Origin: Alphaproteobacteria bacterium
GTDB lineage: Bacteria; Pseudomonadota; Alphaproteobacteria; Rs-D84
Reading direction: 5' to 3'
Length of the DNA: 32,609 bases
Assembly (NCBI GenBank): GCA_017616975.1
Contig: JAFZXC010000027.1
Location: 1-32,609, forward strand
Under the pieces are notes generated by a model. It was not told the origin of the DNA. It saw only the letters and a program-made list of their open reading frames with translations, and ran no database searches. The position numbers and the translations under genes are program-made. This document shows, piece after piece, positions 8,287 through 27,637 of the stretch (position 1 is the first letter of the stretch; each line of letters opens with the position of its first letter).

Positions 8287-8361
8287 AATTTATAACAAAA
8301 ATACTTGTGTTTTTGTCTTTTGATTTCTAACATATACACCAAGACATTGGAGAGTGTTTCG

Positions 8362-11300
8362 GTGAAAGGAAGAAAACAAAAAAAATCATCACGCAAATGG
8401 CTGCGGTATGTCGCATATTCTATTGTTGCGCTGGTTGTGCTGGGCGTTGGTTTTTTGCTTTTCGGTCATATTGGCAATAAAACAAAAATCGCACTTGCGG
8501 TTTCTGTGCCTGCCCCGGCGTCATTTGTTGATTCCAATTCGGCAAGTTTTATTACTTCGTCCCATATGCCAGAGGTTAACAACAATCGCACATTGACGGC
8601 ACCTGAAACGATGACTGTGTCATATAATTGGATTTCGGGGGAATATGCCCCGGCTTTCAAAATAAACATGACAACCCCCGACATTGCACGTGATGTAAAA
8701 ATCACACCGTATACCCGGGGCACATGGTCAATTCGTGGGCCAAACACAATCGCATTTGCCCCAGATTCAAATTGGTTGCCCGACACAAAATACACCATCA
8801 GTATTGGGAAAAAATTGTTAAGCGATGACGTTCGTCCCGACACACGTGTTGCATCTTTTACCACTCCAAAAATCGCCGCCACCATCGACAGTTTTAATGT
8901 ATATCCCGACCCATCACACGAACGCACCGTTGTTGGTGTTGCGATTGTGTCTTTTAATTATCCAATTGAAACAACTGATTTTGCAGATCGTGTTTCGGTA
9001 AAGCTTGGGATGCGTCGCATCAAATTCAATGTCCGTTTTGACCGATTTAATCGCACTGCAATTATCACGACCGACCCAATCAGCGTCGATCAAGACACAC
9101 ATACACTGCGGTTAAAAATCAACCGTATAAATTCCGCCAACACATCCGCCACAACAAAGAAAGTCAGTGCAAGTGTCATCATCGAATCTGTGGATAATTT
9201 CTTTAAAATATCGGGAATAAAATCTGTGGCTGCGGATGATGCGCATGGAAATCCCCAGCAACTTATTTTATTAGACATGACTGCACCGGCAAACGACAAA
9301 ACAAACTGGGCAAAAAACATTGATGTGTTTCTGTTGCCGAAATATGCCGATGCAGACGAAGATTCTGGTTCGCACGTATGGACAAACGACGAGATAAATC
9401 AGTCGGTATTAAGTAAGTCAAAAAAAATTACCATCAATCGTACAGACTTTGCTAATCCAATCGGCGTGTATCAATACGCATTTGCGTATGACATTTCCGA
9501 CGAAGACGAACGCTATATTTATGTTCGTGTTCATAACGACATAAAATCTAACTCTGGGTTTGTATTAAAAAATGGTGTTGAACGTGTATTACCCATAGCA
9601 TATCCAGAAAAGACCGTAAAAATTGCTGGGACTGGGGCATTATTATCACTGGCGGGCGACAAAAAATTAACAATTGTGGCACGTGGTGGCGCCGACACAG
9701 CGTATGTCAACCTGTACAAAATCAAATACGATGAAATAAACCACCTTATATCCCAGACATATAACATATTTGCACCGAACATTGAATTCAAGTCTTGGTC
9801 GTTCGGCGTCTATGATATGGCGTCTGTGTTTCAAAAACGCATATCTTTTGCAGATACCAAATTGAACAAGACCAATTATGCATCCGTAGATTTGGGCGAT
9901 TATTTGGACCGTGGCACAAATGACAACACTGGAATTTTTGTGATTCAAACTGGGGCTTCTGAATCCAGCGCCGAATTCAGTGATCGCCGTTTAATACTTT
10001 TAACCAATTTGGGCATTATACGTAAAGTTGCTGCTGATGGAACTTCGGCTGTATTCGTATCACAATTGGACACTGGCGCACCATCTGGGGACACAGAAAT
10101 TTTTGTTTTGGGACGCAATGGAAATGCTGTCTGGGCGGGTCGCACCGATGCCAACGGCTTTGTCGCCGTTCCAAATTTTGCATGGGAAGAATACCATAAC
10201 GAACGTGAACCGGTCGCAATCGTTGTTCGCAACAATGACGATGTTTCGTTTATACCATATAATTCGGCAGACACCCATGTTGGATATTCTAAATTTGATA
10301 TAGACGGCGCATACACGGCATCGACAACCCCGATGAACGCATTTGTGTTTTCAGACCGTGGTATTTATCGCCCTGGGGAAACTGCGATAATTGCCGGCAT
10401 CATCAAAAACAAAACATTTACCAAATTGTCTTCTGTGCCAATTAAAATAGAAATTGTTGATTCTCGTGGACGCACGGTGCGTGAAGAGATTTTCACAGCA
10501 ACCGCCGACGGCATGTTCGATTTATCATACAACATTGCGAACAGTGCGCAAATTGGCGAATATACAACCAATGTGTTTTTATTGAACAACAAAAACCGTA
10601 TCCAAGACACGATTGGAACAATGAATTTCCGGGTCCAAGAATTTACCCCAGACAATTTAAAAATAAACGCTGACATTTTGGGTTCAACTGAAAACGGATG
10701 GATTTCAACATCGTCCATGTTTGCCAAGATGTCTTTATTCAACTTGTTTGGCACACCGGCAACAAACCGGCGCATTGCGGCGCATGCAACGCTTAAACCC
10801 ATCGAATTTGTGTTTCCGGAATATCGTGAATACACTTTCACGCCGAATTTCATATCTGGGGCTGGGTTATCGGCGAATGCTGTAAATCGTGCCCAAACAT
10901 TTTCTGTCGAATTGCCAGACGTTAAAACCGATGAAAACGGTTCGGCGGTCTTGGACATAAATTTCAACCAAGAAATTCCCAACGGCACATATTTAATGAC
11001 ACTTAATGTGACCGGGTTTGATGGGTCGGCGGGGACCGGTGTTCAAACGACATTGGCAACACGTGTATCAAACGCCGAATACCTGGTGGGATATCATGCA
11101 AATTCTAATTTGAATTACGTTTTACGGGACGATGTCCGCAATGTCAACCTTGTCGCATTAGACACCTATGGCGAACGCACATCGGTAAACGGATTGACCA
11201 TTCGCACCATACGACGTGAAAATTTAACAAGCCTGGTCAAAGACTTTAACGATTATTATAAATACCAAACGATTACCCAAGACACCGTCATATCGACATC

Positions 11301-14097
11301 CACTATTGATATTTTGGCAACCGGTACAGACATACGCCTGGACACGACACATGGCGGAACATACTTTGTTCAAATTACCGACAACAATGATAGAATTTTG
11401 GCAAACATTGAATACTTTGTTGCGAACTCGTCAAATACAGACATGTCCACAAACACAGACAGCGAAATGAAAATCAAACTGGATGCTGATGAATATGCTG
11501 CGGGCGACACTGTGAACATAAGCATAACAACCCCATATATCGGCACGGGTCTTATTACAATTGAACGTGATCGTGTTTATGCATACAAATGGTTCCGCAC
11601 AAATTCGACAACGTCGGTTCAACAAATCACCCTGCCCGACGGATTTGAAGGTTCCGGATACATCAACGTTTCCTTTGTCCGTGATATAAACAGTCGTGAC
11701 GTATTTACGACACCGTACACATCGGCGGTCGCTCCGTTCCGGGCCAGCACTGTTGCCCGCAACATAGACATCGATTTGTCTGCCCCAGAAACAATCACCG
11801 ACAACCGTCTGCCGGTGTCATACCGTGTGTCCAAGAATTCTAAAATCATGATTTTTGCTGTGAACACCGGAATTTTACAGGTTGCAAAATACAAACTGCC
11901 AAATCCGTTGTCGCACTTTTTCCCGAAATCCGCACTCCAGGTTGAAACATATCAAATCTTGTCGTTGTTATTGCCAGAATATCGTGTATTAAGTGAACTT
12001 GCTAAAACTGGTGGTGGCGATTTTGCCGAAATCGATACCGGCATTGGCAACACACTTGTTAACCCATTTGCACGAAAAACGAACAAACCTGTGGCGTTCT
12101 ATTCGGGCATAATTGATGCACGTGCCAACCAAACGGCAACCATCACATTTGATATCCCAGAACACTTTAATGGTTCGATTCGTGTCTTTGCGGTTGCTAC
12201 AAATGATAATTCTGTTGGTGCAAGCAATATCGAAACCCATGTACAAAGCCCGATTATGTTGTCAACTTCGGCACCATTGGTTGTCGCCCCAGACGATGTG
12301 TTTGATGTGAACACAATTGTCACCAATATGACAAATGGCACAACAGCCACAGCGGTTGCCGACGTCGATGCAACGGTTTCATCTAATTTGGAAATAATTT
12401 CGGGTGCCGCACAATCAATGACCATACCATATGGCGGTGAAAAGTTATGGTCTTTTGTAATAAAGGCAAAACCAGAGTTAGGCAATGGCGACATAAAAAT
12501 ATCTGCGGACATACATGATGGGTCAGATGTGTCTTTATCAAACCGCACGACAACATCGACATTATCTGTGCGTCCAATCACGACATATCAAACAAAGATA
12601 AAATCTGGCATGCTTCGGTTATCAACAACAACTGTGCGCAATTTCACAACCGACATGTATCCAGAACTTGCGAAAATAAAACTGTATATTTCGCCAAACA
12701 ATACCGTCATTGTTAAACCATTGTTTGAATACCTTGGGCAATATGAATATGCATGCACCGAACAAATTGTATCAAAAGCATTACCATATGCATTGATGCC
12801 GGCGAACGATATTTTGGGGACAACATACCTAGAATCCAAGGTCAAAGTTGCCGATGCAATATCCACGTTAAAGAACCGCCAAAATGACGATGGATCATTT
12901 GATTGGTGGACGGGGGGCGACACATCACGCAACAATGAAACGTCCACAAACACGGCATACATAACTGCATATGTCGTTCAATTCCTTGAGATTGCGAAAA
13001 AGTCTGACTTTGACGTTCCAAAAAATATGTTGTCACGTGCAATTGATTTTCTGCGCACATACGCCGGCACACGCATCAGTGATGAACCAGGGGCTGCCGC
13101 CCATGCGTTTGCTATTTATGTTTTGACACAAAACGGATACATTACAACGGGATATATTGATGCCTTTGAAGAATACGCTAATGCGAACATAAAAAACTGG
13201 CAACACAATTTGATGGGCGCATACATCGCAACCGCATACAAGATTTTGAAACAAGAACAAAAGGCAAATTCGCTTATTACCAAATACCGCCCTGCACTGC
13301 GTTCAAAATTTGAATTCATAGATACGTTCCGGAACAACGTTGCAAACGATGCAAACTATGCATATCTTGTGAACCGTTATTTCCGTGCGATTTCCAGCAA
13401 CGATATCGGCGACAACATAACAGAATACATAAATGACGGCGATTATTCGTCATATACATCTGCGGCAATTATTATGGGTATATCTGGGAATATGTCTGGC
13501 GGTAAAAAAACCACCCCAGACGACATATCGATAATTGCAGACGGCACGCCGGTTGAATTAAATGCTTTTGACGGAACGATTACTGCTGACATACCGCTTG
13601 GCACGAAACAGTTATCAATTCAATGCCAAACATGCACCCGCAAAGAACCGATGTATTACACAACAATATCGACCGGTTTTCCAACGGATGCCCATGAACA
13701 GTCAAACGGAATTGAAATATCACGTGAATACTTTGATGAAAACGGCAATCGTCTGGACACCGTATCTGTGGGCGACAGCATTAACGTAAAAATTTCTGTA
13801 CGCAGTCGTCGTGGCGATATAATTCCAAATGTCGTGATAACAGATCTGGTCCCGGGTGGTTTCATTGTTGGCGACCCAGCGGGCGATATCACTTTTGCCG
13901 AAACACGTGAAGACCGCATATTGATATTCTTGGACGTCACACGTGATGGGCAAACAATAACCTATACTGCCCAGGCGGGTGTTGCCGGGAATTTCCATAT
14001 TCCGCCAATTTATGCGGCATCGTTATATAACCCACAAATAAATGCGACCAACAATGTTGGCAAAATGTTCACTGTAAAAAATGCGTTCACTGAATAA
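8362..14097 (+). CDS. bacterial alpha-2-macroglobulin, membrane anchored
   Basis: 1911 aa from GTG 8362, chosen because GGAGAG lies seven bases upstream; upstream in-frame codons lack a ribosome site. Bacterial alpha-2-macroglobulins trap attacking proteases in the periplasm. A short basic N-terminus is followed by one membrane helix (~16-36) and a long periplasmic chain of beta domains, including the MG motif DRGIYRPGE (665-673). The thioester motif CTEQ is intact at 1465-1468 (YEYACTEQIVSKALPYA), followed by the helical thioester domain. E. coli YfhM is a lipoprotein of about 1650 residues; this one is longer and has a signal anchor without a lipobox Cys. It overlaps pbpC by 17 bases, the conserved partnership in which PBP1C repairs the wall after breach. 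Confidence 0.93.
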   Translation: MKGRKQKKSSRKWLRYVAYSIVALVVLGVGFLLFGHIGNKTKIALAVSVPAPASFVDSNSASFITSSHMPEVNNNRTLTAPETMTVSYNWISGEYAPAFKINMTTPDIARDVKITPYTRGTWSIRGPNTIAFAPDSNWLPDTKYTISIGKKLLSDDVRPDTRVASFTTPKIAATIDSFNVYPDPSHERTVVGVAIVSFNYPIETTDFADRVSVKLGMRRIKFNVRFDRFNRTAIITTDPISVDQDTHTLRLKINRINSANTSATTKKVSASVIIESVDNFFKISGIKSVAADDAHGNPQQLILLDMTAPANDKTNWAKNIDVFLLPKYADADEDSGSHVWTNDEINQSVLSKSKKITINRTDFANPIGVYQYAFAYDISDEDERYIYVRVHNDIKSNSGFVLKNGVERVLPIAYPEKTVKIAGTGALLSLAGDKKLTIVARGGADTAYVNLYKIKYDEINHLISQTYNIFAPNIEFKSWSFGVYDMASVFQKRISFADTKLNKTNYASVDLGDYLDRGTNDNTGIFVIQTGASESSAEFSDRRLILLTNLGIIRKVAADGTSAVFVSQLDTGAPSGDTEIFVLGRNGNAVWAGRTDANGFVAVPNFAWEEYHNEREPVAIVVRNNDDVSFIPYNSADTHVGYSKFDIDGAYTASTTPMNAFVFSDRGIYRPGETAIIAGIIKNKTFTKLSSVPIKIEIVDSRGRTVREEIFTATADGMFDLSYNIANSAQIGEYTTNVFLLNNKNRIQDTIGTMNFRVQEFTPDNLKINADILGSTENGWISTSSMFAKMSLFNLFGTPATNRRIAAHATLKPIEFVFPEYREYTFTPNFISGAGLSANAVNRAQTFSVELPDVKTDENGSAVLDINFNQEIPNGTYLMTLNVTGFDGSAGTGVQTTLATRVSNAEYLVGYHANSNLNYVLRDDVRNVNLVALDTYGERTSVNGLTIRTIRRENLTSLVKDFNDYYKYQTITQDTVISTSTIDILATGTDIRLDTTHGGTYFVQITDNNDRILANIEYFVANSSNTDMSTNTDSEMKIKLDADEYAAGDTVNISITTPYIGTGLITIERDRVYAYKWFRTNSTTSVQQITLPDGFEGSGYINVSFVRDINSRDVFTTPYTSAVAPFRASTVARNIDIDLSAPETITDNRLPVSYRVSKNSKIMIFAVNTGILQVAKYKLPNPLSHFFPKSALQVETYQILSLLLPEYRVLSELAKTGGGDFAEIDTGIGNTLVNPFARKTNKPVAFYSGIIDARANQTATITFDIPEHFNGSIRVFAVATNDNSVGASNIETHVQSPIMLSTSAPLVVAPDDVFDVNTIVTNMTNGTTATAVADVDATVSSNLEIISGAAQSMTIPYGGEKLWSFVIKAKPELGNGDIKISADIHDGSDVSLSNRTTTSTLSVRPITTYQTKIKSGMLRLSTTTVRNFTTDMYPELAKIKLYISPNNTVIVKPLFEYLGQYEYACTEQIVSKALPYALMPANDILGTTYLESKVKVADAISTLKNRQNDDGSFDWWTGGDTSRNNETSTNTAYITAYVVQFLEIAKKSDFDVPKNMLSRAIDFLRTYAGTRISDEPGAAAHAFAIYVLTQNGYITTGYIDAFEEYANANIKNWQHNLMGAYIATAYKILKQEQKANSLITKYRPALRSKFEFIDTFRNNVANDANYAYLVNRYFRAISSNDIGDNITEYINDGDYSSYTSAAIIMGISGNMSGGKKTTPDDISIIADGTPVELNAFDGTITADIPLGTKQLSIQCQTCTRKEPMYYTTISTGFPTDAHEQSNGIEISREYFDENGNRLDTVSVGDSINVKISVRSRRGDIIPNVVITDLVPGGFIVGDPAGDITFAETREDRILIFLDVTRDGQTITYTAQAGVAGNFHIPPIYAASLYNPQINATNNVGKMFTVKNAFTE

Positions 14098-16459
14098 TTT
14101 TTGGACGGGGAAATTCTCTTTTTACCAACGCCACAAACGTGGTTGCAGAATTGTTGGGATTTTATTAGCAGTCTATTTTATTATACGTCTGTTTTTCACC
14201 CCGCCATTATTAAGCGACACTCACTTTTCACGTGTTTTTTATGATCGCAATGGCACTCTTTTGCGCATTACGTTGACCCCTGATGACAAATACAGAATTT
14301 TCGCCCCATTAAACGAAATAAGTAAAACATTACAACGTGCAACCATTTTATATGAAGACAAATACTTTAGATATCATCCCGGCGTGAACCCGATTGCATT
14401 ATTGCGTGCGACAAAAAATTATTTTTCCGGGGCACCCCACCCCGCCGGTGCATCAACAATTACTATGCAGGTTGCTCGAATAAAATATAACATGGATACG
14501 ACTCGACCGATTGGAAAATTAATCCAGGTCTTGGCGGCAATTTATATTGATGCGTTTTATTCCAAAGACGAAATTTTACAGGCATATCTTAACTTGGCGC
14601 CATATGGTGGAAACATCGAAGGAATCGCTGCCGCATCCCAAATCTATTTTCACAAAGCCCCCGTCAACATAACAACAATTGAATCAATCACATTGTCCAC
14701 AATTCCGCAAAACCCGACAAAACGTGGGCTGAATACCGCATCTGGCATTGAACACATGCAAATAATGCGCAACGATTTGGTCCGTCGATGGACAAACGAA
14801 TACCCAGACGATGTATCATCACTGGAAACATTGTCCAAAATGCCACTTGCGGCATTTGGTGTTCACGACTTACCATTTTTAGCGCCGCATTTTATTAATC
14901 GACAAATTTCTCACTCTAATGGCAAGACCAACACGACGACTACACTGGACATAAATTTGCAAACAAAGCTAGAGAAACGATTACGCACCGAAATTGATCG
15001 CCGCAAAAACATCGGCATAAAAAATGCGGCGGCGATATTGGTCAATTACAAGACGATGCAAGAACTTGTTCACATTGGTTCGGTTGATTATTTTGATAAA
15101 TCGATATACGGGGAAAATGATGGCGTGACAGCACGACGCAGCCCCGGTTCAACATTAAAACCACTGATATACGCATCGGCAACAGACATGGGTTTAATAC
15201 ACTCGATGACTTTGTTAAAAGACGCCAAAATCAACTTTGGGGTATATGCACCCGAAAATGCAGACAACGAATTTTTTGGGCCGGTTTTGGCACGTGATGC
15301 ATTGACACATTCAAGAAACATCCCGGCAATTAATCTTGTGCGACAAATTGGCACACGCAGATTTTATAAAACATTGACCGATTGTGGTGTGACCGGACTT
15401 AAATCGCCCGAACACTATGGTATATCGGTTGCACTTGGCGGTGCCGAAGTTTCCATGTATGAATTGGCGGGCATATATGCAACGATGGCAAATCTGGGGC
15501 AATATAATGAAATAAAATCAGACATATATGCACCGACAAAAAAACCAACAGATGTATTAAGTCCCGAAGCATTTTTTATCGTCTTGGACATGTTATCACA
15601 CCAATCGACCCCAACAGTTAAAATTCCATTTACCAAAAACAACACTTCAAATATCACACACATGTGGAAGACCGGCACATCATCGTCATATCGTGATGCG
15701 TGGACGGCGGGCATATTTGGGGACTATGTTTTGATTGTATGGGTGGGCAATTTTGACGGCACCCCCAACAACGCGTTCAGTGGTGCCAAGGCCGCAGCCC
15801 CCATATATTTTGCACTGGCCGACACCATCATCGATTACTATAAATCCAGCAATACACCCGTTCAAAATAACAACTTTTTGCGTCCAGACATGAACATATC
15901 CCAGGTCGACATGTGTGATACCGTCGGCGGATTGGCGGGCAAATTTTGTCCAAAGACAGTTTCCGCATATTTTATCCCAGGCAAATCACCGATTGAAATA
16001 TCGTCCGTATATCGTGCAATTCCAATTGATAATGCGACTGGGTTGCGAGCATGTTCATATAATCCACAAACAACTCACATGGCGGTCTATGAATTTTGGG
16101 ATTCGGAATATATCGATATGTTTCGGCGTGCCGGCATAAAACGAAACACACCGCCACCATATGTCCCCGGATGCAATTTAAATGATATGGATGAAACACC
16201 CGATGCAATAATTATAACATCACCCGCCGATGCGACACGCATCGTAATAACCACCCCGGGTGATACTGCACCCATTTCATTTAACGCAATCTGCGAAAAC
16301 TCAACGGCAAAAATTTTCTGGTTTTTGGATGACAAAACGATTGGCACTACAAAATCTGGCGAAACATTTAGATACGAAATTCCCATGGGTTCGCACATCG
16401 TTCGTGCGATTGATGAATCTGGGCATGGCACATCAAATAAATTCAGTATCATCAAATAA
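14081..16459 (+). CDS. pbpC: penicillin-binding protein 1C
   Basis: 792 aa bifunctional peptidoglycan synthase. A membrane helix (~22-41) is followed by the GT51 transglycosylase with YEDKYFRYHPGVNP (catalytic Glu92) and GASTITMQVAR. The transpeptidase has the Ser nucleophile in STLK (357-360), SRN in the SxN position and KTGTS (530-534). The C-terminal ~100 residues form the BiPBP_C domain typical of PBP1C (from about PGCNLND to the end). The start lies inside the macroglobulin gene (17-base overlap) without a clear Shine-Dalgarno, so translation is probably coupled. PBP1C genes are usual partners of bacterial macroglobulins. Confidence 0.95.
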   Translation: MRSLNNFWTGKFSFYQRHKRGCRIVGILLAVYFIIRLFFTPPLLSDTHFSRVFYDRNGTLLRITLTPDDKYRIFAPLNEISKTLQRATILYEDKYFRYHPGVNPIALLRATKNYFSGAPHPAGASTITMQVARIKYNMDTTRPIGKLIQVLAAIYIDAFYSKDEILQAYLNLAPYGGNIEGIAAASQIYFHKAPVNITTIESITLSTIPQNPTKRGLNTASGIEHMQIMRNDLVRRWTNEYPDDVSSLETLSKMPLAAFGVHDLPFLAPHFINRQISHSNGKTNTTTTLDINLQTKLEKRLRTEIDRRKNIGIKNAAAILVNYKTMQELVHIGSVDYFDKSIYGENDGVTARRSPGSTLKPLIYASATDMGLIHSMTLLKDAKINFGVYAPENADNEFFGPVLARDALTHSRNIPAINLVRQIGTRRFYKTLTDCGVTGLKSPEHYGISVALGGAEVSMYELAGIYATMANLGQYNEIKSDIYAPTKKPTDVLSPEAFFIVLDMLSHQSTPTVKIPFTKNNTSNITHMWKTGTSSSYRDAWTAGIFGDYVLIVWVGNFDGTPNNAFSGAKAAAPIYFALADTIIDYYKSSNTPVQNNNFLRPDMNISQVDMCDTVGGLAGKFCPKTVSAYFIPGKSPIEISSVYRAIPIDNATGLRACSYNPQTTHMAVYEFWDSEYIDMFRRAGIKRNTPPPYVPGCNLNDMDETPDAIIITSPADATRIVITTPGDTAPISFNAICENSTAKIFWFLDDKTIGTTKSGETFRYEIPMGSHIVRAIDESGHGTSNKFSIIK

Positions 16460-17365: not shown

Positions 17366-18013
17366 CTATTTCCATATACGCATCATGTCGTCGGCCGCCG
17401 CCGTGCGCCAACCGCCATTACGCAATGCGATAGTTATCAAAGCCCGTGATGCAGACGGTAATTCAACCGTCACAGATTTTCCATTAATATATTTTGTCGT
17501 AATATCAATGCGTTCATTGCGCATAATTTTATTCAAATCCGCCCAATCAGCAATAGCATCATCGCTCAAATTAATCTGGGCAACGAACATATCCACAGAC
17601 GTTCCATCGTTCAACCAATTTTGAATTTCGTTTTCAATCATCCATGCCCGTGCAGCCACTTTATCAATAGTCATTGTGATTTTTGCCGAATATGCAGTAT
17701 TAGAAATTTTTTCGTTATCGATACTGGTCGCAGAAATCAAATTCACCAAATCAGCACTTTTTGCGGCACGTATCACAGGAACCAATTGATCCGACATTGC
17801 ATACGGAGATAATTTATCAATCAAAATTTGACGTCTGGCATCATTTATCGCCATTGTTTTTGCGGTCTGGGACGTATCACTTGTCATATTAACATGCGCC
17901 ACCCCAACAAGTTCCGCAGCGCCCGCAACACCGACAAAAAACCAAGATAACAAAAATCCAAGAAATCTTTTCATATTGCACATATTAAACATAAAAAGTT
18001 TTATCTGCAACAT
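17366..18013 (-). CDS. exported protein of unknown function (operon middle gene)
   Basis: The ATG at 18013 overlaps the preceding stop by one base (TGATG), implying coupled translation and a 215-aa product. An in-frame ATG at 17974 (MKRFLGFLLSWFFVGVAGAAE) gives a more ordinary signal peptide and 201 aa, but has no Shine-Dalgarno; the true start is open. The mature protein begins with a beta strand, then TAKTMAINDARRQILIDKL, a helix-with-AR layout reminiscent of the N-terminal domain of FlgT-like periplasmic proteins; this is only a loose resemblance. No catalytic motif or Cys is seen in the mature part. It is probably periplasmic and linked to the two flanking barrel proteins. Confidence 0.65.
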   Translation of the reverse strand: MLQIKLFMFNMCNMKRFLGFLLSWFFVGVAGAAELVGVAHVNMTSDTSQTAKTMAINDARRQILIDKLSPYAMSDQLVPVIRAAKSADLVNLISATSIDNEKISNTAYSAKITMTIDKVAARAWMIENEIQNWLNDGTSVDMFVAQINLSDDAIADWADLNKIMRNERIDITTKYINGKSVTVELPSASRALITIALRNGGWRTAAADDMMRIWK

Positions 18014-19539
18014 CAAAACTTTGCATCAATTCCAATACGAATACCCATCGATTTATATATGGAATCGATTTCCTTGCTTGATTTGCAAACCCAACCATGA
18101 CAGTCAGATTCCAATTGCACGATTTTAAGTGCCGTTGCATCCCCCGTCGTCGGATTTAACATTTCTTGTTCCGTATGACCGGCATTTTGCCATTCTTGTA
18201 ATCTGGAATTATAAAGTGCGGTATAGTATTGCGGATTAAGATACGTGTTTGCATCGGCACCGCTGACCGTATAATAGTCATACGTCAAACCCAACGATAA
18301 TGCGATATTATTTGTAATCGCCGTCTTCCAATTTGCCGCCAATCCCAAATGAAATGCAGAAAACATACTGGCAGAATCTTCTACACTTTTCGGGTGTTGC
18401 CAATCTGGACGATACGGTTGATCACCGGTTGATTTATAACCCGGAAAGCCAAGTTCCACACGACCGTTCACACTGTTGTTTTGATTTATATCATACAACA
18501 TATCAAATGCGATATATGGGCCCGACCATTCTGTTTCATAAGAATGCGTGACTCCGGATTGTTCATAATAATAGGAATTTCCCGCATAGACATATGAATA
18601 TCCGGCCGGCACTTGAATTCTGTCGTTTGAATCAATAACGCCGTCACCATTAGTATCACTGCGATCAACGATACCCGGCGTATCACCAAATGCGGTGTTA
18701 TAGAAAATCAATACTGGGTCACACTGAATTTCGCCATTACCAAACGAAAAACAAGAATTTGCACCATTTAATGTGTCAATCATAAGCCCGAAATTATTTT
18801 TCGTTTCCAATTTATACTTAAAATACCGATAACCAATCGATGGCGTTATTTTCACATTTCCCCAACGCCAAAAATCCGTCAACCCAAAGCCGATATTGAA
18901 TCCCAACAAATTTCCATCTTTGCTGGCGCCGGTTGATAATGCATGTCCAACCTGGGTCACGATGGCACCACTGCCCCCGTCTTGCCATTCTTCGACAAGA
19001 TATCCACCATTTGTAATATCGTCGTCGTTCATGGTTGATTCACCCCATTGCATACCGTATTTAAACCCGGCATCAACCTGCATTTTTGTTTTACCCAAAT
19101 CGAACACATAACCACCGTTCAAATCTAAAACATTCCACGCAACATTGTTATACGACAGTATGGAATTAGCGGTGTTTACCATCTCTATTTTCCACATGGC
19201 ACTTTCGTGCGTAATGCCACCATTGACAAAGAAACCTTTTTTCGCAGAACCAGACTGTTTCTGGGAACTTTGCGTTTGGTTTTGGACCGAATTAGTATTG
19301 CGGTATGGTTGCGCAGCATACGTTTGCCCATAAGTATTTGATGTTGTGTAATTATTATAGCCCACACTGGATGCATAATTCTGGGTTCCAGATGTCGTAT
19401 AAGATGCGCTTTGGCCATAACGATATTGGGCCGGTTGATATGCGGCACCCGTATAATACGTCCCCGCCGCACCAGCATTTCCAGAAAAGCCCAATAAAAC
19501 AAGACAATTCAACAAGATATATTTATGAAAATGTGACAA
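18013..19539 (-). CDS. outer-membrane beta-barrel-like protein with a Ca-binding-type loop
   Basis: 508 aa. TTG 19539 is the start, with a GGGGGGA ribosome site six bases upstream. The signal peptide (1-25) is followed by a low-complexity region rich in Tyr, Gln, Ser, Thr and Asn (26-100) and a strand-rich barrel (~101-508) ending GIRIGIDAKF. Residues 295-306 (DTNGDGVIDSND) match an EF-hand/dockerin calcium loop at positions 1, 3, 5, 8, 9 and 12. Some segments (MQWGES, YRYFKYKLET, PDWQHP) faintly recall omptin-type barrels, but I cannot place the omptin catalytic residues, so protease activity is not claimed. It is the first gene of the three-gene operon. Confidence 0.7.
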   Translation of the reverse strand: MSHFHKYILLNCLVLLGFSGNAGAAGTYYTGAAYQPAQYRYGQSASYTTSGTQNYASSVGYNNYTTSNTYGQTYAAQPYRNTNSVQNQTQSSQKQSGSAKKGFFVNGGITHESAMWKIEMVNTANSILSYNNVAWNVLDLNGGYVFDLGKTKMQVDAGFKYGMQWGESTMNDDDITNGGYLVEEWQDGGSGAIVTQVGHALSTGASKDGNLLGFNIGFGLTDFWRWGNVKITPSIGYRYFKYKLETKNNFGLMIDTLNGANSCFSFGNGEIQCDPVLIFYNTAFGDTPGIVDRSDTNGDGVIDSNDRIQVPAGYSYVYAGNSYYYEQSGVTHSYETEWSGPYIAFDMLYDINQNNSVNGRVELGFPGYKSTGDQPYRPDWQHPKSVEDSASMFSAFHLGLAANWKTAITNNIALSLGLTYDYYTVSGADANTYLNPQYYTALYNSRLQEWQNAGHTEQEMLNPTTGDATALKIVQLESDCHGWVCKSSKEIDSIYKSMGIRIGIDAKF

Positions 19540-19641: not shown

Positions 19642-19726
19642 GCGACCATGGCGGAATTGGTATACGCGCAGCACTAAGGATGCTGTGGAGAAATCCTTGG
19701 GGGTTCAAGTCCCCCTGGTCGCACCA
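19642..19726 (+). tRNA. tRNA-Leu, anticodon AAG
   Basis: 85 nt with encoded CCA. Acceptor GCGACCA/TGGTCGC, D-stem GCG/CGC with GG in the loop, anticodon stem CAGCA/TGCTG (19669-19673/19681-19685), loop CTAAGGA, T-arm GGGGG/CCCCC with TTCAAGT. The class II variable arm has a GGA/TCC stem (19687-19696), and the discriminator is A. All this fits leucine. The anticodon at 19676-19678 is AAG, which decodes CUU directly, or CUU/CUC/CUA if A34 becomes inosine. Bacteria normally use GAG here. Confidence 0.93.
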
Positions 19727-19806: not shown

Positions 19807-22800
19807 ATGAAAAAAATTGGGCTGATTTTCGCTGGGTGCCTTGCGTTTATTGGGGTTTATGGCGCACACGCAGAAGATGCCGGCGACGCTGCGCGCGCCG
19901 CAATTCGTCGTGCATCGTCGGGTATTACCGCAAATCAAAGCCGCCAAAAATCAAGCGATACTGTATCTGGAACAAATGCAATACGTGGAAACACCACGAC
20001 TGCAACCCATGCCACACAAAATGTTCGTGGCCGCAATACCACCACACAAAATCGCACTCAAAATGTTGTTGAACGGGTGTCCAATACGACTCCACGCACC
20101 ACCGGCAACGTTGTATCACGTGCCACGGTTGCATCCGTTGCGCCCCGCACGACAACACCAACGACTACAAATACGACACGTTCTGCGACACGTTCGGGAA
20201 CATCTTCGGTCCAAGGTAAATCGGCATCTCGTTCAGTCGCACGTTCCGGAACAAATGACACTGTCACCCGTGACGATATACTGAACCGCAACTATTCCAA
20301 ATGCAAAACGGTCTTTTTTGATTGCATGGACGAATTCTGTGCGAACAAAGATTCCCAGTTAAAACGTTGTGCTTGTTCATCCCGCATAAATGAATTTGAT
20401 GCCGTCAAAAAACAATTGGATGCAGCCGAAGATAAAATGCTTGATTTCAACCAACGTCTTTTGACGGTCAGCATGGAAAAAGAAGACGCCGAAGCATTAT
20501 CTGTCGCAACCGAAGGGGAAACGGCGTATCTTGCCACCACAGACAAATCCGATTCCAAGAAAACGCTTGATGCAATTGCACAAAAGTTAAAGACCAATTT
20601 TGATACCAGTTCATTTAACAGCGATCTAAACGTGTTATCTTGGTCGCTGAACATGGACAGTGCATTTGACAATGTTGATTCTTTGTTGGGCGCATCGACA
20701 ACGACCAAATCTGGCACTGAATTATACTCTGCGGCATTGCCGGTTTGTCGGCAAATGGCTGCCGAAGTTTGTGCTGAATCCGACATATCCCTGGCCGAAG
20801 GGGGATATCTGGCATTAATCGAACAAGACTGCAACACCGTTGCTAAAACATATAAAACCCAGGCGGCCCAGGCACGATCCAAGGTACTGGAAGGTAGCGC
20901 CCTGCTTGACATGTCACGTTTGGATGTTTATCAAAAACGCAATTCGGACGACATCTTGACCTGTAAAAGAAAGATGTTAGACATGTTGACTGATTCAACG
21001 ATATGTGGCGAAAATTTAAGCAAATGTTTGGATACTACGGGAAAATATATCGATCCAGCCACAGGCGAAGTGTTCTTGAAACCAGAATTGGTCGAATTAA
21101 GCAATTTGCTGACACGCCCAGACGACGGTTCAACATGGACATCGATGGCTAAAAATTCTGCATTTGTATCGTTCTTGGATTCGAAAAAGAAGTTTTTGGA
21201 ACCGGCGATGGAAAACTGTGAAAACATTGCCGATGATGTATGGGACGGTTTTGTCGAAGACGCTTTGGCACAAATCAAATTGGCCCAAGAACAGAAATTA
21301 AACGACGTCCGTCAAAGCTGCACCGTATTAACCGCCCAATGTTTAGCCGAAGCCGAAGAATCAATCACACAATTTGATGCCCGTGCTTTGTCGGTATTTG
21401 GCATTGATGCCGACCGGACAAAAAACGCTATGTGTGCAGATGTTATTCAATCTTGTACGGCATTATTGAACACTACGAACGACAACGGCAACACATGGAA
21501 CAGTGGTGTGGCCGACATAACACTTGCCACGACATACGAAACACTTATGCAGACCTGTCGCCAGGTGGGACGTGCATGTATTATCCAGGTATGCACATCA
21601 ACATCTGGGAATTTTGGGTTATGCGAAAACATATCGACATCGGTCAACCGCAAAACAATTATCAATCGTAATGCTTGCTGGCAAGATGTTGTCGACTGTA
21701 TCGCAAATGCCGGCGACACTGCAATTAACGACATTATTGAAAAGCAACTTGGGTTTGGTGCGAACGCTGCAAATTCATCAATAAACTTTTATGACTATCT
21801 GTATGGTTCGTACACGCTTGCGAACAACGACAATACCGCATCATGCACCACCGATGGTAATTCAAGTTGTGTGTACGATATTTGTGCCGACAAATGCACC
21901 AGCACCAGCGACAAAGTCGAATGCCGCAAGTGCCGTTTGGCTGAACGCATCTGGGGTAATTGCGAAACAAGTCCTGCAACGATATTACTTGGCGCAACCC
22001 AGCACAACCAAATCAAACAGGGTCCATCAGACGAACAAACATTGTTGTATTGGTTTGCGACAAATACCGGTACCGAAAACGCCCTGGACAACTGTCGCGA
22101 CACGACATGCCCGGTTGGATACACATCAATCGACGGTGTTTGCGTTCACTCTTCGGATATGTGCGTAACGTCATACGCCCAACAAAACACTGATGACAAT
22201 CTTACCATGTGCTCTCTCGACACAAGAAGTTATCCGTCGTTCAATGATTCAAGCAAATTCCGTTGCATGTGTTGCGACATCGCCAACAAAGATACCGCTG
22301 GCAATTGTTGCGACAACGGCAGGTTCATTTATGCAAAATTTGAAACGGCCGGGATTTTCCCGAACGATTCTTATATCCGGTTTTGTTCGGCAACTGGCAA
22401 CGGCACGGTTATAACCGAACCATATATGGATGACACCGGTGGTTCTTTGGGACGTTATCATGTTTTAATCTGTGATGGTGCAAACGCCCAATCTGGACGT
22501 ACCGCCGGGACAGTGTATATTGATTCCGGTGGACAACCAATGTGCAACGGGACATTGGTTGACGTACTGGTTTATCCATACACGGAAAACGGGGTCAAAA
22601 AATATAACTTCTATTACCAGTCGCCAACATACAATACTTTTGTTTCCGACGTGATAATGGATCGTGACTTAAATCAATACAAGTGGATGGATTATACCTA
22701 CCCCAGCATCACGAATTATGGATGTTTCGACGAAACGACCCGGGACAGCTGCTCTTTGGACCCGATTATTTCCGGGGACGGCAGTGGGACCAACAATCTG

Positions 22801-22833
22801 TTGGGTGAATGGTCGGTAGCTTTTACACAATAA
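19807..22833 (+). CDS. large secreted Cys-rich protein, unknown
   Basis: 1008 aa from ATG 19807; an in-frame TTG at 19768 lies in the -35 box and is rejected. A signal peptide (1-22, ending AHAE) is followed by a low-complexity Thr/Arg/Asn/Ser-rich region (~25-155). The remainder is a mix of long helices (~160-530) and Cys-rich beta segments, with about 44 Cys after the signal peptide, many as spaced pairs (CKTVFFDC, RCACSS, RCMCCDIANK, GNCCDNG). This implies many disulfides and therefore an extracytoplasmic location. No enzyme motif or sorting signal was recognised. The C-terminus (PIISGDGSG...WSVAFTQ) reappears as a degraded copy at 23727-23792. It is the first gene of a five-gene exported locus. 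Adhesin or surface-layer roles are guesses. Confidence 0.75.
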   Translation: MKKIGLIFAGCLAFIGVYGAHAEDAGDAARAAIRRASSGITANQSRQKSSDTVSGTNAIRGNTTTATHATQNVRGRNTTTQNRTQNVVERVSNTTPRTTGNVVSRATVASVAPRTTTPTTTNTTRSATRSGTSSVQGKSASRSVARSGTNDTVTRDDILNRNYSKCKTVFFDCMDEFCANKDSQLKRCACSSRINEFDAVKKQLDAAEDKMLDFNQRLLTVSMEKEDAEALSVATEGETAYLATTDKSDSKKTLDAIAQKLKTNFDTSSFNSDLNVLSWSLNMDSAFDNVDSLLGASTTTKSGTELYSAALPVCRQMAAEVCAESDISLAEGGYLALIEQDCNTVAKTYKTQAAQARSKVLEGSALLDMSRLDVYQKRNSDDILTCKRKMLDMLTDSTICGENLSKCLDTTGKYIDPATGEVFLKPELVELSNLLTRPDDGSTWTSMAKNSAFVSFLDSKKKFLEPAMENCENIADDVWDGFVEDALAQIKLAQEQKLNDVRQSCTVLTAQCLAEAEESITQFDARALSVFGIDADRTKNAMCADVIQSCTALLNTTNDNGNTWNSGVADITLATTYETLMQTCRQVGRACIIQVCTSTSGNFGLCENISTSVNRKTIINRNACWQDVVDCIANAGDTAINDIIEKQLGFGANAANSSINFYDYLYGSYTLANNDNTASCTTDGNSSCVYDICADKCTSTSDKVECRKCRLAERIWGNCETSPATILLGATQHNQIKQGPSDEQTLLYWFATNTGTENALDNCRDTTCPVGYTSIDGVCVHSSDMCVTSYAQQNTDDNLTMCSLDTRSYPSFNDSSKFRCMCCDIANKDTAGNCCDNGRFIYAKFETAGIFPNDSYIRFCSATGNGTVITEPYMDDTGGSLGRYHVLICDGANAQSGRTAGTVYIDSGGQPMCNGTLVDVLVYPYTENGVKKYNFYYQSPTYNTFVSDVIMDRDLNQYKWMDYTYPSITNYGCFDETTRDSCSLDPIISGDGSGTNNLLGEWSVAFTQ

Positions 22834-22851
22834 CAAAGGATGGCGAGAATG
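22765..22851 (+). repeat. duplication boundary, copy 1
   Basis: The end of the Cys-rich gene (ATTATTTCCGGGGACGGC at 22765-22782) plus the junction GGATGGCGAGAATG (22838-22851) and the AAAACCAAAAGGACA leader of the first lipoprotein gene. Copy 2 is at 23730-23809, at the same relative place before the second lipoprotein gene. Confidence 0.8.
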
Positions 22852-22872
22852 CAAAAACCAAAAGGACATAAA

Positions 22873-23721
22873 ATGAAACTTAGTAAAAAAATGTTTTATA
22901 AAATCAAACGCTTGATTCCAATGATGGGACTGGCGGGTTTAACCACATTGCCAATCGCATGTGAAGATCCAGAACAGGAAGCAGAATTGCTTGCGGAAGC
23001 AAAACGTGGCTTTCCCGGCGACAAGGATTCAACTACAACGAAAACGGACACGACAAACAACGTCAGTGTGCCTTTTTCTACACACGAATTCACTCAGATC
23101 TTTGGTGACGAATTGGTACAATATATACAAACTTTTATTGCTACGATTGAAACACAGGCCAAAGATTCAACCGTTGATACCATTTATATGGTACCAAATG
23201 GAAATTGGGAAGATGTTGATAAGATTGGTATATTCCGCATTCGTGATTTGTTCTTGCAACCTGCAACGGAAATTTCTCCAAAGGTTCATGGTCGTGGTGA
23301 TTTTAATTTTAAATTGGGCGAAGCGACCAAGACCCCTGCGGACAGTCTATGGTTTACTGAAAAGGGTTGGACAATTAACAAAAAATATCATGGCATACCA
23401 CGTGATATTGAAATCAAGTTTAATAGAGACAATCATATTCCAGCCATTACAAACTATATACCTTATTTCACAAACGATTCTACTGTTCGTGCAATATACC
23501 TGGTTCCAGAAGGACATTGGACTGATTTTAACCATTATACCATTCCGTCTTTCCGAACATTCTTGCAACAGCAAGTTGAACTTTCACCAAAAATTCATGG
23601 TCGTGGTGATTTCGACTTTAAATTGGGTGAAGCGTCCAAGGTTCCACAAGACAGTATTTGGATTACACAACAGGGTTGGACGATTAACAAAGCGTACCAA
23701 AACAACCAAAACCAGAAATAA
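22873..23721 (+). CDS. repeat lipoprotein 1 (two ~75-aa repeats, RGD in each)
   Basis: 282 aa from ATG 22873, set by AAAAGGA six bases upstream. The first 27 residues look like a lipoprotein signal ending LPIAC (the -3 residue is Pro, not the usual Leu), followed by acidic CEDPEQEAE. A Thr/Asp/Lys-rich linker follows. Two copies of one domain then occur (from 23164 and from 23476). Each begins DSTV..IY(M/L)VP.G.W, contains SPK(V/I)HGRGDF.FKLGEA and closes with GWTINK. No known family was recognised. An in-frame ATG at 22840 would add 11 residues (MARMQKPKGHK), a stretch also preserved in the next gene. It is a likely membrane-anchored surface or periplasmic protein. Confidence 0.75.
   Translation: MKLSKKMFYKIKRLIPMMGLAGLTTLPIACEDPEQEAELLAEAKRGFPGDKDSTTTKTDTTNNVSVPFSTHEFTQIFGDELVQYIQTFIATIETQAKDSTVDTIYMVPNGNWEDVDKIGIFRIRDLFLQPATEISPKVHGRGDFNFKLGEATKTPADSLWFTEKGWTINKKYHGIPRDIEIKFNRDNHIPAITNYIPYFTNDSTVRAIYLVPEGHWTDFNHYTIPSFRTFLQQQVELSPKIHGRGDFDFKLGEASKVPQDSIWITQQGWTINKAYQNNQNQK
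23164..23388 (+). repeat. repeat domain copy 1a
   Basis: 75 residues from DSTVDTIYMVP to GWTINKKY, containing SPKVHGRGDFNFKLGEA. First of five copies at 23164-25117. Confidence 0.9.
23476..23697 (+). repeat. repeat domain copy 1b
   Basis: 74 residues from DSTVRAIYLVP to GWTINKAY, containing SPKIHGRGDFDFKLGEA. It is closer to copy 2b than to copy 1a in its opening (TVRAIYLVP) and closing (INKAY) segments, so the two-domain gene existed before it was duplicated. Confidence 0.9.
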
Positions 23722-23726
23722 TATCA

Positions 23727-23792
23727 CCTATTATTTCTGGGGACGGCGGTTTTTGGTCCGTTGACGAAAGGTTGGAAAGGTGTGACCAATAA
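23727..23792 (+). pseudogene. 21-codon ghost of the Cys-rich gene's 3' end
   Basis: Between lipoprotein genes 1 and 2 a frame reads PIISGDGGFWSVDERLERCDQ and stops at TAA (23790-23792). The intact upstream gene ends PIISGDG...GEWSVAFTQ and TAA. The matching DNA (18-bp block differing at one base, then a diverged middle, then ...CAATAAC) shows that it derives from the same type of 3' end. It has no start of its own and is a scar of tandem duplication or of recombination with a paralogous locus. Confidence 0.75.
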
Positions 23793-23809
23793 CCCGGATG
23801 GCGAGAATG
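23730..23809 (+). repeat. duplication boundary, copy 2
   Basis: ATTATTTCTGGGGACGGC (23730-23747) and GGATGGCGAGAATG (23796-23809), matching copy 1 at 22765-22851 with offsets of 965 and 958 bases. It includes the ghost fragment and the leader of lipoprotein gene 2. Confidence 0.8.
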
Positions 23810-23830
23810 AGAAAACCAAAAGGACAAAAA

Positions 23831-24673
23831 ATGACGTTTACAAAAAATATGTTTTATAAAATTAAACGTTTGATTCCAATGATGGGTCTGGCGGCTTTGA
23901 CAACATTGCCAACTGCATGTGAAGACCCAGAACAAGAAACCGCCATACTTTCCGAAACAAAACGTGGCAAACCGGTTGACACCGATTCAACCGCAACAAA
24001 AACCGATTCAACCGCAGTCAAAACGGATACCCTGCGCAGTGTTGATGTATATTTTTCACGGGAAAACACACCTGATTTTGGCGTTGTGGAATACCATGTA
24101 CAAGATTCAACAATTGGCAAGGTTTATCTGGTTCCAATTGGGAATTGGGACGACGTCCAACACGATCTTATCCAAATCATTCGTTGGTTGTATCTGGAAC
24201 CTGGCTTGAACATGTCACCAAAGGTTCATGGTCGTGGCGACTTTAACTTTAAATTGGGCGAAGCGTCCAAAGTTTACGATGACAGCATTTGGTTCACCGA
24301 AAACGGTTGGACAATAAACAAGAAATATCAACATGGTGCGTTTCGTGATATTGAAATTAAATTTAACGGTTCCAATGGTGCGGACGTTCTTACGTTTGAT
24401 ACATTGAATTATTACGCAAACGATTCGACCGTTCGAGCAATATATCTTGTTCCGACGGGTTCTTGGAGCAACACGTATGCGAGCAACATAACATTTATGC
24501 GCAACAATTTTATGGAACCTCGTATAAAGGTGTCACCAAAAATTCATGGTCGTGGTGATTTCAACTTTAAACTGGGCGAAGCGTCCAAGGTTCCCGATGA
24601 CAGTATTTGGTTCACAAAACAAGGTTGGACAATTAACAAGGCATATCAAAACCAAAATCAACATCAAAAATAA
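23831..24673 (+). CDS. repeat lipoprotein 2 (two ~75-aa repeats, RGD in each)
   Basis: 280 aa from ATG 23831, with the same AAAAGGA ribosome site as gene 1. The signal and lipoprotein-like Cys (LPTACEDPEQE) are nearly identical to gene 1. The linker is expanded into a small repeat (DSTATKTDSTAVKTDT). Two domain copies follow (from 24104 and from 24422), both with HGRGDFNFKLGEA and GWTIN. It is clearly a tandem paralogue of gene 1. The N-terminus and the motif cores are conserved while the intervening helices (for example LIQIIRWLYLEP against IGIFRIRDLFLQP) have diverged, as in a variable surface protein. Function unknown. Confidence 0.75.
   Translation: MTFTKNMFYKIKRLIPMMGLAALTTLPTACEDPEQETAILSETKRGKPVDTDSTATKTDSTAVKTDTLRSVDVYFSRENTPDFGVVEYHVQDSTIGKVYLVPIGNWDDVQHDLIQIIRWLYLEPGLNMSPKVHGRGDFNFKLGEASKVYDDSIWFTENGWTINKKYQHGAFRDIEIKFNGSNGADVLTFDTLNYYANDSTVRAIYLVPTGSWSNTYASNITFMRNNFMEPRIKVSPKIHGRGDFNFKLGEASKVPDDSIWFTKQGWTINKAYQNQNQHQK
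24104..24328 (+). repeat. repeat domain copy 2a
   Basis: 75 residues, DSTIGKVYLVP to GWTINKKY, containing SPKVHGRGDFNFKLGEA. Confidence 0.9.
24422..24646 (+). repeat. repeat domain copy 2b
   Basis: 75 residues, DSTVRAIYLVP to GWTINKAY, containing SPKIHGRGDFNFKLGEA. Confidence 0.9.
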
Positions 24674-24679
24674 TAATCG

Positions 24680-25126
24680 ATGCGATTTTATAACAAAATC
24701 TTTTACGATATAAAACATGTTATCCCGTTGATTGGATTGGCGGGCACAACAATGACATCGTGCATTGATTTTGATATTCGTGAACCAATAAAAAAATCAG
24801 ACCCGGTTATACAACGTGATATTGATTTGGTATTTAACGATACTACTAAATTCGATATTTTGGATGTTGATGCATTATTAAAAATCATTAATAATGATAC
24901 AATCCGTCGCATATATCTTGTTCCGGTTGGTCATTGGGACAAATACGATGATGAAAGCATAACCGCCCTGCGCCGTCGTTTATTACAACAACGTATCGCA
25001 TTGTCACCAAAGATACGTGGTTTGGGTGATTTCGATTTTATGCATGGTGCGGCATCACATGTCCCGATGGACAGCATGTGGTACGTCGAAAACGGATGGA
25101 CCATAAACAATGGTAATCAACGGTGA
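24680..25126 (+). CDS. repeat lipoprotein 3 (single, diverged repeat)
   Basis: 148 aa. It starts six bases after the previous stop, without a visible Shine-Dalgarno, so translation is probably coupled. The N-terminus (MRFYNKIFYDIKHVIPLIGLAG) is a recognisable relative of genes 1 and 2, and a lipoprotein-like Cys follows (TMTSC at 28). A short charged linker leads to one domain copy (24893-25117) in which the core reads SPKIRGLGDFDFMHGAA, so the RGD is lost while SPK, GDF and GWTIN stay. It is half the size of its neighbours, either an ancestral single-domain form or a shrunken paralogue. Confidence 0.7.
   Translation: MRFYNKIFYDIKHVIPLIGLAGTTMTSCIDFDIREPIKKSDPVIQRDIDLVFNDTTKFDILDVDALLKIINNDTIRRIYLVPVGHWDKYDDESITALRRRLLQQRIALSPKIRGLGDFDFMHGAASHVPMDSMWYVENGWTINNGNQR
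24893..25117 (+). repeat. repeat domain copy 3 (RGD lost)
   Basis: 75 residues from NDTIRRIYLVP to GWTINNGN. It aligns end to end with the other four copies but has RGLGD in place of HGRGD and MHGAASH in place of KLGEASK. Confidence 0.85.
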
Positions 25127-25135
25127 TAAAAACAA

Positions 25136-27637
25136 ATGAAACAAATTAAACGCATCTTTATGGCAATTGTTTTAATCTGTGCATGCAATACCCATAATTG
25201 TTTTGCCGTCCAGATTATCAACTCTTGTGCTGCTACCGAACCACCATGTGACACGGGTTGCCACGAAGATCCAGACACCGGATTTTGTGTTTCAGACCAA
25301 TTGACACCAGGGGGCCAGGACGATCCGTGTTGGGACTATACGAGCACCATGTCCTGTTTGGATTCGGCGGAAACATGTTACTGGAATGACATCGGGGGCG
25401 GTAATCACGTATGTTCATCCACACAAATTGAATCTTGCCATGATATCGACGCCTTTTCTGTTCAATCGCCCAGAACAACTTGCAACAATGCCACCGTTGG
25501 CGGACAACAATGCGAATGGACAACATCTTTATCCGGTCTTTGCAGAAACAAAACAACCACGGTCACATGTTGTGACGGCACCACCGCATCCAGTGTATCC
25601 GCCTGTCCAACATGTAGTACATGTGCCGCAATTACCAACACATCAATGTGCACGACATATAATACGACAACTTTGAATTGTATTTTGTCTGGCGGTTCAT
25701 GTCGTGACAAAACCTGTGCTGATTTAAGTCAGTCAAATTGTACAACATACAATACAAATTGGCATTGTATGTGGGACAGCATGCAGGGGTGCCGCGCCTG
25801 TAACGAATACGAATACTATGACACAACAAACAAAACATGCAAACAGTGTGCATCTGCCGACGATCCTCGCAATGTAACTGATTATGCCAGATATACTGAT
25901 GGAAACCACCATTATTGGTCATACAGATTTGCAGAAACAAATGCGACAAGTCGGCAACAATGCTATGCAAAATACCCATCGGGGCCTGTATCGTCTGTAA
26001 CTATCGCCAACAGCAGCAATTGTTCCAACGCAAGCACCACAGGCAAAATGTTCTATCAGACGGCAAACGCATGCCGTGTGACAGAGGCCACATGTCAAAA
26101 CGGATATTATTTCAACCCCACTAATGGCGCCAATACATGTTCACCATGCACAAATAACGCCAATGGCAATGGTATATTTACGGGGCCCGGCAACAAAAAC
26201 GGTGAAGACCCCATAGGCACCACAATATCTACACTCTGCCCTATCAAATGTCCAATTAATAAAACCGGTCCTGCATATTACGAAACAAGTGCGAAAACAT
26301 GCGAAACGTGTAAAAATGCGGGCACCAATGGACGACCAAACGGCTATGCTGATGCAGAATGGTTGGTCACAGACACAAACCAAGCAAGTGGTGGATACTG
26401 TGCATGGCGCATCATATGTCAAAAAAATTATGAATGGAAAAACCTAGATTATATTGGTAATTGCTATGCATGTCCCGCACACTATCACACAGACCAGGCA
26501 TATATTGTATACGCATATCAAAATGCAACTGATGGCCACCTGAGTGTACCGTATTATTGCTCAATAGACTATGAGAACACCGGTAACGCGGATTCAACAC
26601 ACTGTGATCCAAACAGCCAATACAATGTTTACGACAACATCAGCGGCACATATCCAACATGCCAACCAGATATTTATACTATCGCACTGGTCACAGAGTT
26701 TCCCACTGGCAGCGCACATAATGACGTTCCTCAACGTCAATATATTTATGAACAATACGCTTCAAAACTGTGCTATGGTAACACAACCGGTAACGAATTC
26801 ATATGTACCAGCACGCAACCTACCACAAATTCACACCAGTCAACCACTTCGTTCACCTGTTGCGACAGCGGTTTCTATACCAGTGCAACCCCATCATGCG
26901 AAACATGCATTGGTGCCACCCCAGAAACTGCACACGAACAAAGCCCAGCAAACAAGCTTACCATAATTCCACAATCCACCCAACAATTTATGGGATACTG
27001 GACAAAAAATACCGACCAGACATGGAAAGCAAAAGTCATTGATGAAAACGGCACATTAACATCTAATACAATGTTCGCTGTGGATAATACGCTTTATGCA
27101 CGTTGGAGCGATACTGGTACTTCTTACACATTAAAATTAAAAGACACTGACAACAATGAGTATTTGACTCAATCTTGTTCGGGTTCGATATGTACGTTAT
27201 CTACAAACAACTCTAATAAAATGTATCAAATCACAACCTCATCATACACATTGGGCAATAACTTTGTTGTTAATGGTGTGACGATGGGTAAATTCTATCA
27301 AGATGGCAACAGCGTTAAATTTGAAATTGCATCTGGCGGTCTTTCTGCAATCGATTCTGCCACAAACACACTGACATTGACTGTTGGTCAAAAATGCGCC
27401 GAAGGATATTATTGCCAGAACTTTATAAGCACAGAATGCCCCGGACAAACAACAACCGACAGCGTTGGTGCAACATCTGTATGCCAATGCACATCGTTCA
27501 AGGCATCAACAACCGTCAAAGACACTTTCACGTCTACAAACAATAAAACCAGCGCACCATTGTCCAAGGTTCGTCTGTATAAAGATATACGCAAAAGTTA
27601 TATTAACAGCAGTTCGAACGTGACGCTGTGCAATTGA
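25136..27637 (+). CDS. secreted Cys-rich protein with Listeria-Bacteroides-type repeat
   Basis: 833 aa, 9 bases after lipoprotein gene 3, with GGTGAT as a possible ribosome site. A signal peptide (1-24, ending CFAV) is followed by about 560 residues with dense Cys spaced as in eukaryotic-like Cys-rich repeats (CCDGTTASSVSACPTCSTC, KTCKQC, KTCETC, PSCETC). About 61 Cys are present in all. Around residues 617-659 a segment from FMGYW to NTLYARW matches the InlB B/Listeria-Bacteroides repeat (Flg_new) pattern, known from bacterial surface proteins. The C-terminus adds another Cys cluster (KCAEGYYCQNF...ECPGQ). No anchor or catalytic motif was seen. It shares style, not clear homology, with the 1008-aa protein at the other end of the locus. 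Adhesion is plausible but unproven. Confidence 0.75.
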   Translation: MKQIKRIFMAIVLICACNTHNCFAVQIINSCAATEPPCDTGCHEDPDTGFCVSDQLTPGGQDDPCWDYTSTMSCLDSAETCYWNDIGGGNHVCSSTQIESCHDIDAFSVQSPRTTCNNATVGGQQCEWTTSLSGLCRNKTTTVTCCDGTTASSVSACPTCSTCAAITNTSMCTTYNTTTLNCILSGGSCRDKTCADLSQSNCTTYNTNWHCMWDSMQGCRACNEYEYYDTTNKTCKQCASADDPRNVTDYARYTDGNHHYWSYRFAETNATSRQQCYAKYPSGPVSSVTIANSSNCSNASTTGKMFYQTANACRVTEATCQNGYYFNPTNGANTCSPCTNNANGNGIFTGPGNKNGEDPIGTTISTLCPIKCPINKTGPAYYETSAKTCETCKNAGTNGRPNGYADAEWLVTDTNQASGGYCAWRIICQKNYEWKNLDYIGNCYACPAHYHTDQAYIVYAYQNATDGHLSVPYYCSIDYENTGNADSTHCDPNSQYNVYDNISGTYPTCQPDIYTIALVTEFPTGSAHNDVPQRQYIYEQYASKLCYGNTTGNEFICTSTQPTTNSHQSTTSFTCCDSGFYTSATPSCETCIGATPETAHEQSPANKLTIIPQSTQQFMGYWTKNTDQTWKAKVIDENGTLTSNTMFAVDNTLYARWSDTGTSYTLKLKDTDNNEYLTQSCSGSICTLSTNNSNKMYQITTSSYTLGNNFVVNGVTMGKFYQDGNSVKFEIASGGLSAIDSATNTLTLTVGQKCAEGYYCQNFISTECPGQTTTDSVGATSVCQCTSFKASTTVKDTFTSTNNKTSAPLSKVRLYKDIRKSYINSSSNVTLCN

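Follow-up and report, generated by a model that had tools for sequence, protein, structure and literature searches.

An optional lipoprotein–CysB gene unit in relatives of Candidatus Enterousia, a putative cell-envelope module whose lipoprotein genes have been exchanged with Bacteroidales

In chlamydiae, OmcA, OmcB and MOMP form a disulfide-linked outer-membrane complex. The locus described here lies in a window of 32,609 nt (the whole stretch of DNA that was analysed) and consists of a Cys-rich gene (CysA), three repeat-bearing lipoprotein genes (LP1 to LP3) and a second Cys-rich gene (CysB). It resembles the chlamydial complex by analogy only, in that Cys-rich envelope proteins and lipoproteins are combined in a Gram-negative bacterium with a reduced genome, and a further Chlamydia-related likeness is the Protochlamydia-type outer membrane gene (PF17251) that adjoins CysA; it differs in that the only Cys of the LPs is predicted to carry the lipid, and in that neither CysA (nothing above the Pfam cut-off) nor the window CysB matched a family in Pfam or NCBIfam. 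The Cys-rich, ephrin-receptor-like module PF07699 was matched above cut-off by two CysB homologues (L112 and L117; E 9.9e-6 and 2.8e-5) but not by the window CysB or by that of L109, and the match in L119 fell below cut-off; the bacterial CysB homologues further differ from PF07699 proteins by a conserved C-terminal tail outside the module. An InlB-type repeat had initially been ascribed to CysB. A likeness to InlB B-repeat (Flg_new) proteins can indeed be seen by eye (...GYWTK...LYARW), but no InlB or Flg_new profile of Pfam or NCBIfam matched P0005 (CysB) or four homologues at E<=0.1. The LPs themselves resemble the surface-exposed lipoproteins of Bacteroidota that bear a lipoprotein export signal (LES; PMC5080379), among which C-X-K-(D/E)2 is the optimal surface-export motif in Capnocytophaga (PMC5080379). 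Both have a lipobox followed by polar or Lys and then acidic residues, and Bacteroidales do possess homologues of the LP domain; however, known LES lipoproteins are SusD-like proteins, mucinases and similar, whereas no family was matched by the LP domain, the majority of whose copies in this analysis came from an alphaproteobacterial group.

The window belongs to the order Rs-D84, whose genomes are reduced and lack many biosynthetic pathways, and for which an obligate symbiotic or parasitic lifestyle has been proposed and a dependence on partner cells predicted (PMC12306168). Its source is a 725-kb, 80%-complete assembly with Candidatus Enterousia and uncultured gut Alphaproteobacteria as close kin in the named-genome collection, and the evidence base consists almost throughout of metagenome-assembled genomes. 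The five consecutive same-strand genes reported in the initial annotation are present, all on the + strand: CysA (19807-22833; 1008 aa, exported), LP1 (22873-23721; two repeat domains, with an alternative in-frame ATG upstream at 22840), LP2 (23831-24673; two repeat domains, 61% identity to LP1), LP3 (24680-25126; a single repeat domain) and CysB (25136-27637; 833 aa, exported). Counting gave 45 Cys in CysA and 61 in CysB, bearing out the Cys richness of the outer two genes (~44 and 61 had been claimed). The successive gaps are 39, 109, 6 and 9 nt, so that the spacing is tight, as had been claimed, everywhere but between LP1 and LP2, 109 nt apart. Terminator-like sites on both strands numbered 11, against 10.9 expected by chance; the claimed lack of an internal terminator holds insofar as such sites are not above chance, but a single transcript is not proven thereby. 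A tRNA-Leu (AAG) is located at 19642-19726 (+), between CysA and the divergent Pom gene. Elsewhere in the window, a bacterial alpha-2-macroglobulin (8305-14097, +) is followed by a PBP1C-like penicillin-binding protein (14081-16459, +), a common pairing.

The repeat copies are distributed 2+2+1 over LP1, LP2 and LP3, demonstrating the tandem expansion that had been proposed for the inner three genes. A profile built from relatives matched all five copies, at 23060-23388, 23401-23703, 24035-24334, 24341-24670 and 24812-25120 (all +; starts of copies 1, 3 and 5 approximate), the two LP1 matches spanning 22873-23388 and 23401-23703. Over a 140-nt core, the five DNA copies shared 61-84% identity with the reference copy, and the five-copy repeat is beyond chance. 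The domain is, however, ~105 aa long rather than the ~75 aa first assigned. A structure prediction of one repeat, which had been proposed as a check, gave a confident AlphaFold2 model of copy 4 (48 sequences; 110 aa, pLDDT 96, pTM 0.87), with strands alternating with helices, and no known structure matched it with confidence; the underlying alignment A3 included, among its 48 rows, one in the wrong frame (window:23540-23718), which was retained for the model and the profile searches. Consistent with the initial view that the domain belongs to no known family, none of the 48 alignment members matched Pfam (best E 0.05), no convincing NCBIfam family was found for the three window LPs, the LP profile had no significant match among PDB sequences, and a PDB sequence search with P0002 returned only fragments of Ig-binding protein A, ~20-30 residues around the lipobox. 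Foldseek of the model against PDB and viral structures gave nothing below E 0.03 (best E against PDB, 0.094), and the best VIA-align score (Z 5.6) was tied among many unrelated alpha/beta folds; weak matches of a predicted model do not prove that the LP domain is a new fold. An OmpA/Pal-like fold, an idea taken from the strand-helix order, was absent from the Foldseek and VIA-align lists, which does not in itself exclude it. The LP family is apparently undescribed and appears absent from Pfam and NCBIfam. In contig scans, P0003 alone gave no match and alignment A1 was too variable, but alignment A2 found LP genes, and the profile search placed them in 88 of 183 genomes and 5 of 13 genera, so that they are optional. 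In genome G104, two LP genes at different sites (L080:10825-11430 and L081:8403-9005) share the same upstream sequence, with an identical in-frame read-through of ~49 aa, which suggests recent copying between sites.

CysA is a core gene and the module's neighbour. The family has homologues of it in 183 of 183 genomes, LPs present or absent, in a conserved setting between a Pom-family outer-membrane protein and pth-OMP-polA; in the window the former is the PF17251 gene at 18013-19539 (-; E 4.8e-12), which is syntenic with CysA across the family. An AlphaFold2 model of CysA from 14 sequences was uninformative (pLDDT 47.5, pTM 0.32). In one genome (L124:7729-13880), CysA-LP is followed by an inverted pth-OMP-polA block, and only the first codons of CysB are left; at L128:14161-16405, tandem paralogues of ~175 aa (FKAYGAFWRRGFTEWAGTASRSEYWW...) lie 3' of polA.

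The gene order was surveyed in 80 stretches from family genomes, chosen around LP or CysA, which makes the control a local one. A gene with >=13 Cys came next on the same strand in 61 of the 66 LP arrays whose downstream neighbour could be read, as against 23 of 513 other genes of the same stretches. CysA was directly upstream in 41/66 arrays; in the other 25, a few of which have small spurious ORFs in the gap, it was not, and the LP(n)-CysB order recurs at non-CysA sites, often adjoining a gene which we take to be aldolase-like from our own reading of its sequence. When the CysA signal was removed, LP and CysB distances were correlated (partial Mantel r 0.44; 0/999 permutations as high). Because the order recurs at other sites and CysA is upstream in only 41/66, the conserved optional unit is, on gene order and sequence, LP(n) plus the downstream CysB, mostly but not always beside CysA. 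The five genes had been read as one unit, of which the LP(n)-CysB part stands; with CysA in 183/183 genomes and not upstream of 25/66 arrays, a strict five-gene unit is ruled out. The question whether the repeat always sits beside Cys-rich genes was answered likewise in part: it does in 61/66 arrays of relatives, but Bacteroidales carry LP genes without an intact CysB.

The conserved tail of CysB (CPxGTTS...CYM...GTKFCDxxGCFxLP) had its only strong copy in the LP-linked CysB in eight relatives, and no match was detected in the window's own genome. The tail did not clearly co-vary with LP given CysA (r 0.14, 88/999 permutations as high), and anchoring of CysB by this tail through LP is therefore not supported by co-variation. 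With regard to the description of the outer proteins as disulfide-rich, Cys richness is plain and, of 26 genomes of the order (G000 and 25 relatives), 24 have DsbA, but DsbB and VKOR were sought in the same 26 genomes and found in none, and the bonding itself would be an extrapolation; some Cys of these proteins may well remain unbonded. The group nevertheless abounds in exported proteins that are very rich in Cys, despite DsbB and VKOR not being found.

The export of all five products, as first annotated, agrees with their sequences: CysA and CysB carry export signals, and each of the three LPs has a signal peptide and a single Cys, that of the lipobox (LP1, ...LPIAC-EDPEQE). A lipobox Cys and signal peptide were also found, by sequence, in nearly all LP relatives. 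C-X-K-(D/E)2 was present in 29/77 LPs of Enterousia relatives and in 0/41 other lipobox-like ORFs of the same stretches, the latter being crude calls of which some are surely not lipoproteins. The window LPs, starting CEDPEQE or CIDFDIR, have acidic residues in this region but not the motif in its exact form. Its presence in the LPs of relatives is consistent with LP having come from Bacteroidota and, provided that a Bacteroidota-type signal is read in Enterousia, with surface exposure of the LPs.

When named genomes were scanned, LP genes turned up in Bacteroidales records too, without intact CysB. A 1,152-bp block of a Bacteroidales contig (L118:7472-8623) is 98.4% identical to L122:7472-8623 of Enterousia type; it starts near the LP ribosome-binding site and ends in the signal-peptide part of CysB, beyond which the contigs diverge. 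In both, an apparent hairpin and T-run lie 3' of the LP stop, making separate LP transcripts possible. The flanks of L118 recur on both sides in a separate record, L115 of Candidatus Coprenecus stercoravium, which holds LP plus a CysB remnant, with 88.8% identity to L117 over 661 bp. The remnant suggests that, for the L115/L118 case, transfer ran from Enterousia to Bacteroidales. The G+C of the LP block is below that of its surroundings in the majority of these contigs, including L118 (0.39 vs 0.55) and L115 (0.40 vs 0.50), and is not lower in L136 and L142. In Alistipes HAN006, the LP genes, of which there are several, encode signal peptides of a different style and CysB is lacking, and in the Coprenecus family group LP is patchy, with strong matches in 5/150 genomes. 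An LP tree of 64 rows needed 8 phylum changes, at least 6 of them forced by well-supported branches. Misbinned contigs could inflate single transfer cases, but L115/L118 and the contigs with further Bacteroidales-type genes to either side are hard to explain by misbinning. Collectively, these comparisons leave a clear record of transfer, in which LP genes have been exchanged between Enterousia relatives and Bacteroidales. Bacteroidales keep LP without CysB, and LP must therefore have some use alone.

We consider, with about an even chance of being right, that LP(n)-CysB serves Candidatus Enterousia as an optional module of the cell envelope, most likely as a surface layer of variable make-up or a structure for contact with gut cells or polymers. 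In such a module, one to four small LPs, each with one or two copies of the unclassified alpha/beta domain, would be exported and, once lipidated, held in the outer membrane, probably facing outward; the next gene would yield the secreted, Cys-rich, receptor-ectodomain-like CysB as their putative physical partner, and the two would bind other gut cells or their polymers, a contact function that the genomic context suggests. Surface display and contact are favoured because of the export motif in the LPs and the PF07699 module in CysB homologues, and the partner dependence predicted for the host group also speaks for this reading. It may instead be that LP and CysB are mere neighbours in a hotspot of variable genes between CysA and pth-polA, their linkage reflecting a landing site and co-transfer. 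Such an account is unlikely, although some observations speak for it: several genomes (L096, L097, L100 and L101) have CysA with no gene before pth, LP-CysB also occupies other sites, often by the aldolase-like gene, and LP stands alone in Bacteroidales. Yet the pair keeps its order at different chromosomal sites (the 61/66 above), and the correlation of LP with CysB distances given CysA also argues against it.

The orientation of the LPs bears on a further alternative, which we regard as rather improbable, that they face the periplasm as outer-membrane lipoproteins with a structural or stress role, CysB being a surface protein with no relation to them. In Alphaproteobacteria most outer-membrane lipoproteins are normally periplasmic, and the lack of the exact export motif in the window LPs would agree with this; its presence in 29/77 LPs of relatives speaks against it. 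The LPs could also act in immunity or as decoys when gut neighbours release antibacterial proteins. Such a role would account for the tandem copies and for transfer between phyla, and single LP genes are indeed dispersed over Bacteroidales genomes, some of which hold several, with tandem arrays and recent transfer between phyla. We nevertheless hold this to be very improbable, as toxin or secretion genes were not noticed beside LP in the loci read, the domain core is strictly conserved, which is unusual for immunity proteins, and a search of viral contigs, phages and plasmids found no LP relatives. The envelope-module reading admits a bolder version, to which we assign only a slim chance, in which Enterousia took up a Bacteroidota-type LP with its export motif and coupled it to its own CysB, the pair serving as an organ of contact with Bacteroidales cells.

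Members of Candidatus Enterousia and of its order inhabit animal guts, are uncultured and probably depend on other cells. LP together with the Cys-rich CysB is a defined, testable surface candidate for cell contact, and the trail of gene exchange leads to Bacteroidales, among them members of the Rikenellaceae (Coprenecus and Alistipes, for instance). If the contact-organ reading were true, the exchange of LP genes would mark Bacteroidales as the partners of Enterousia.
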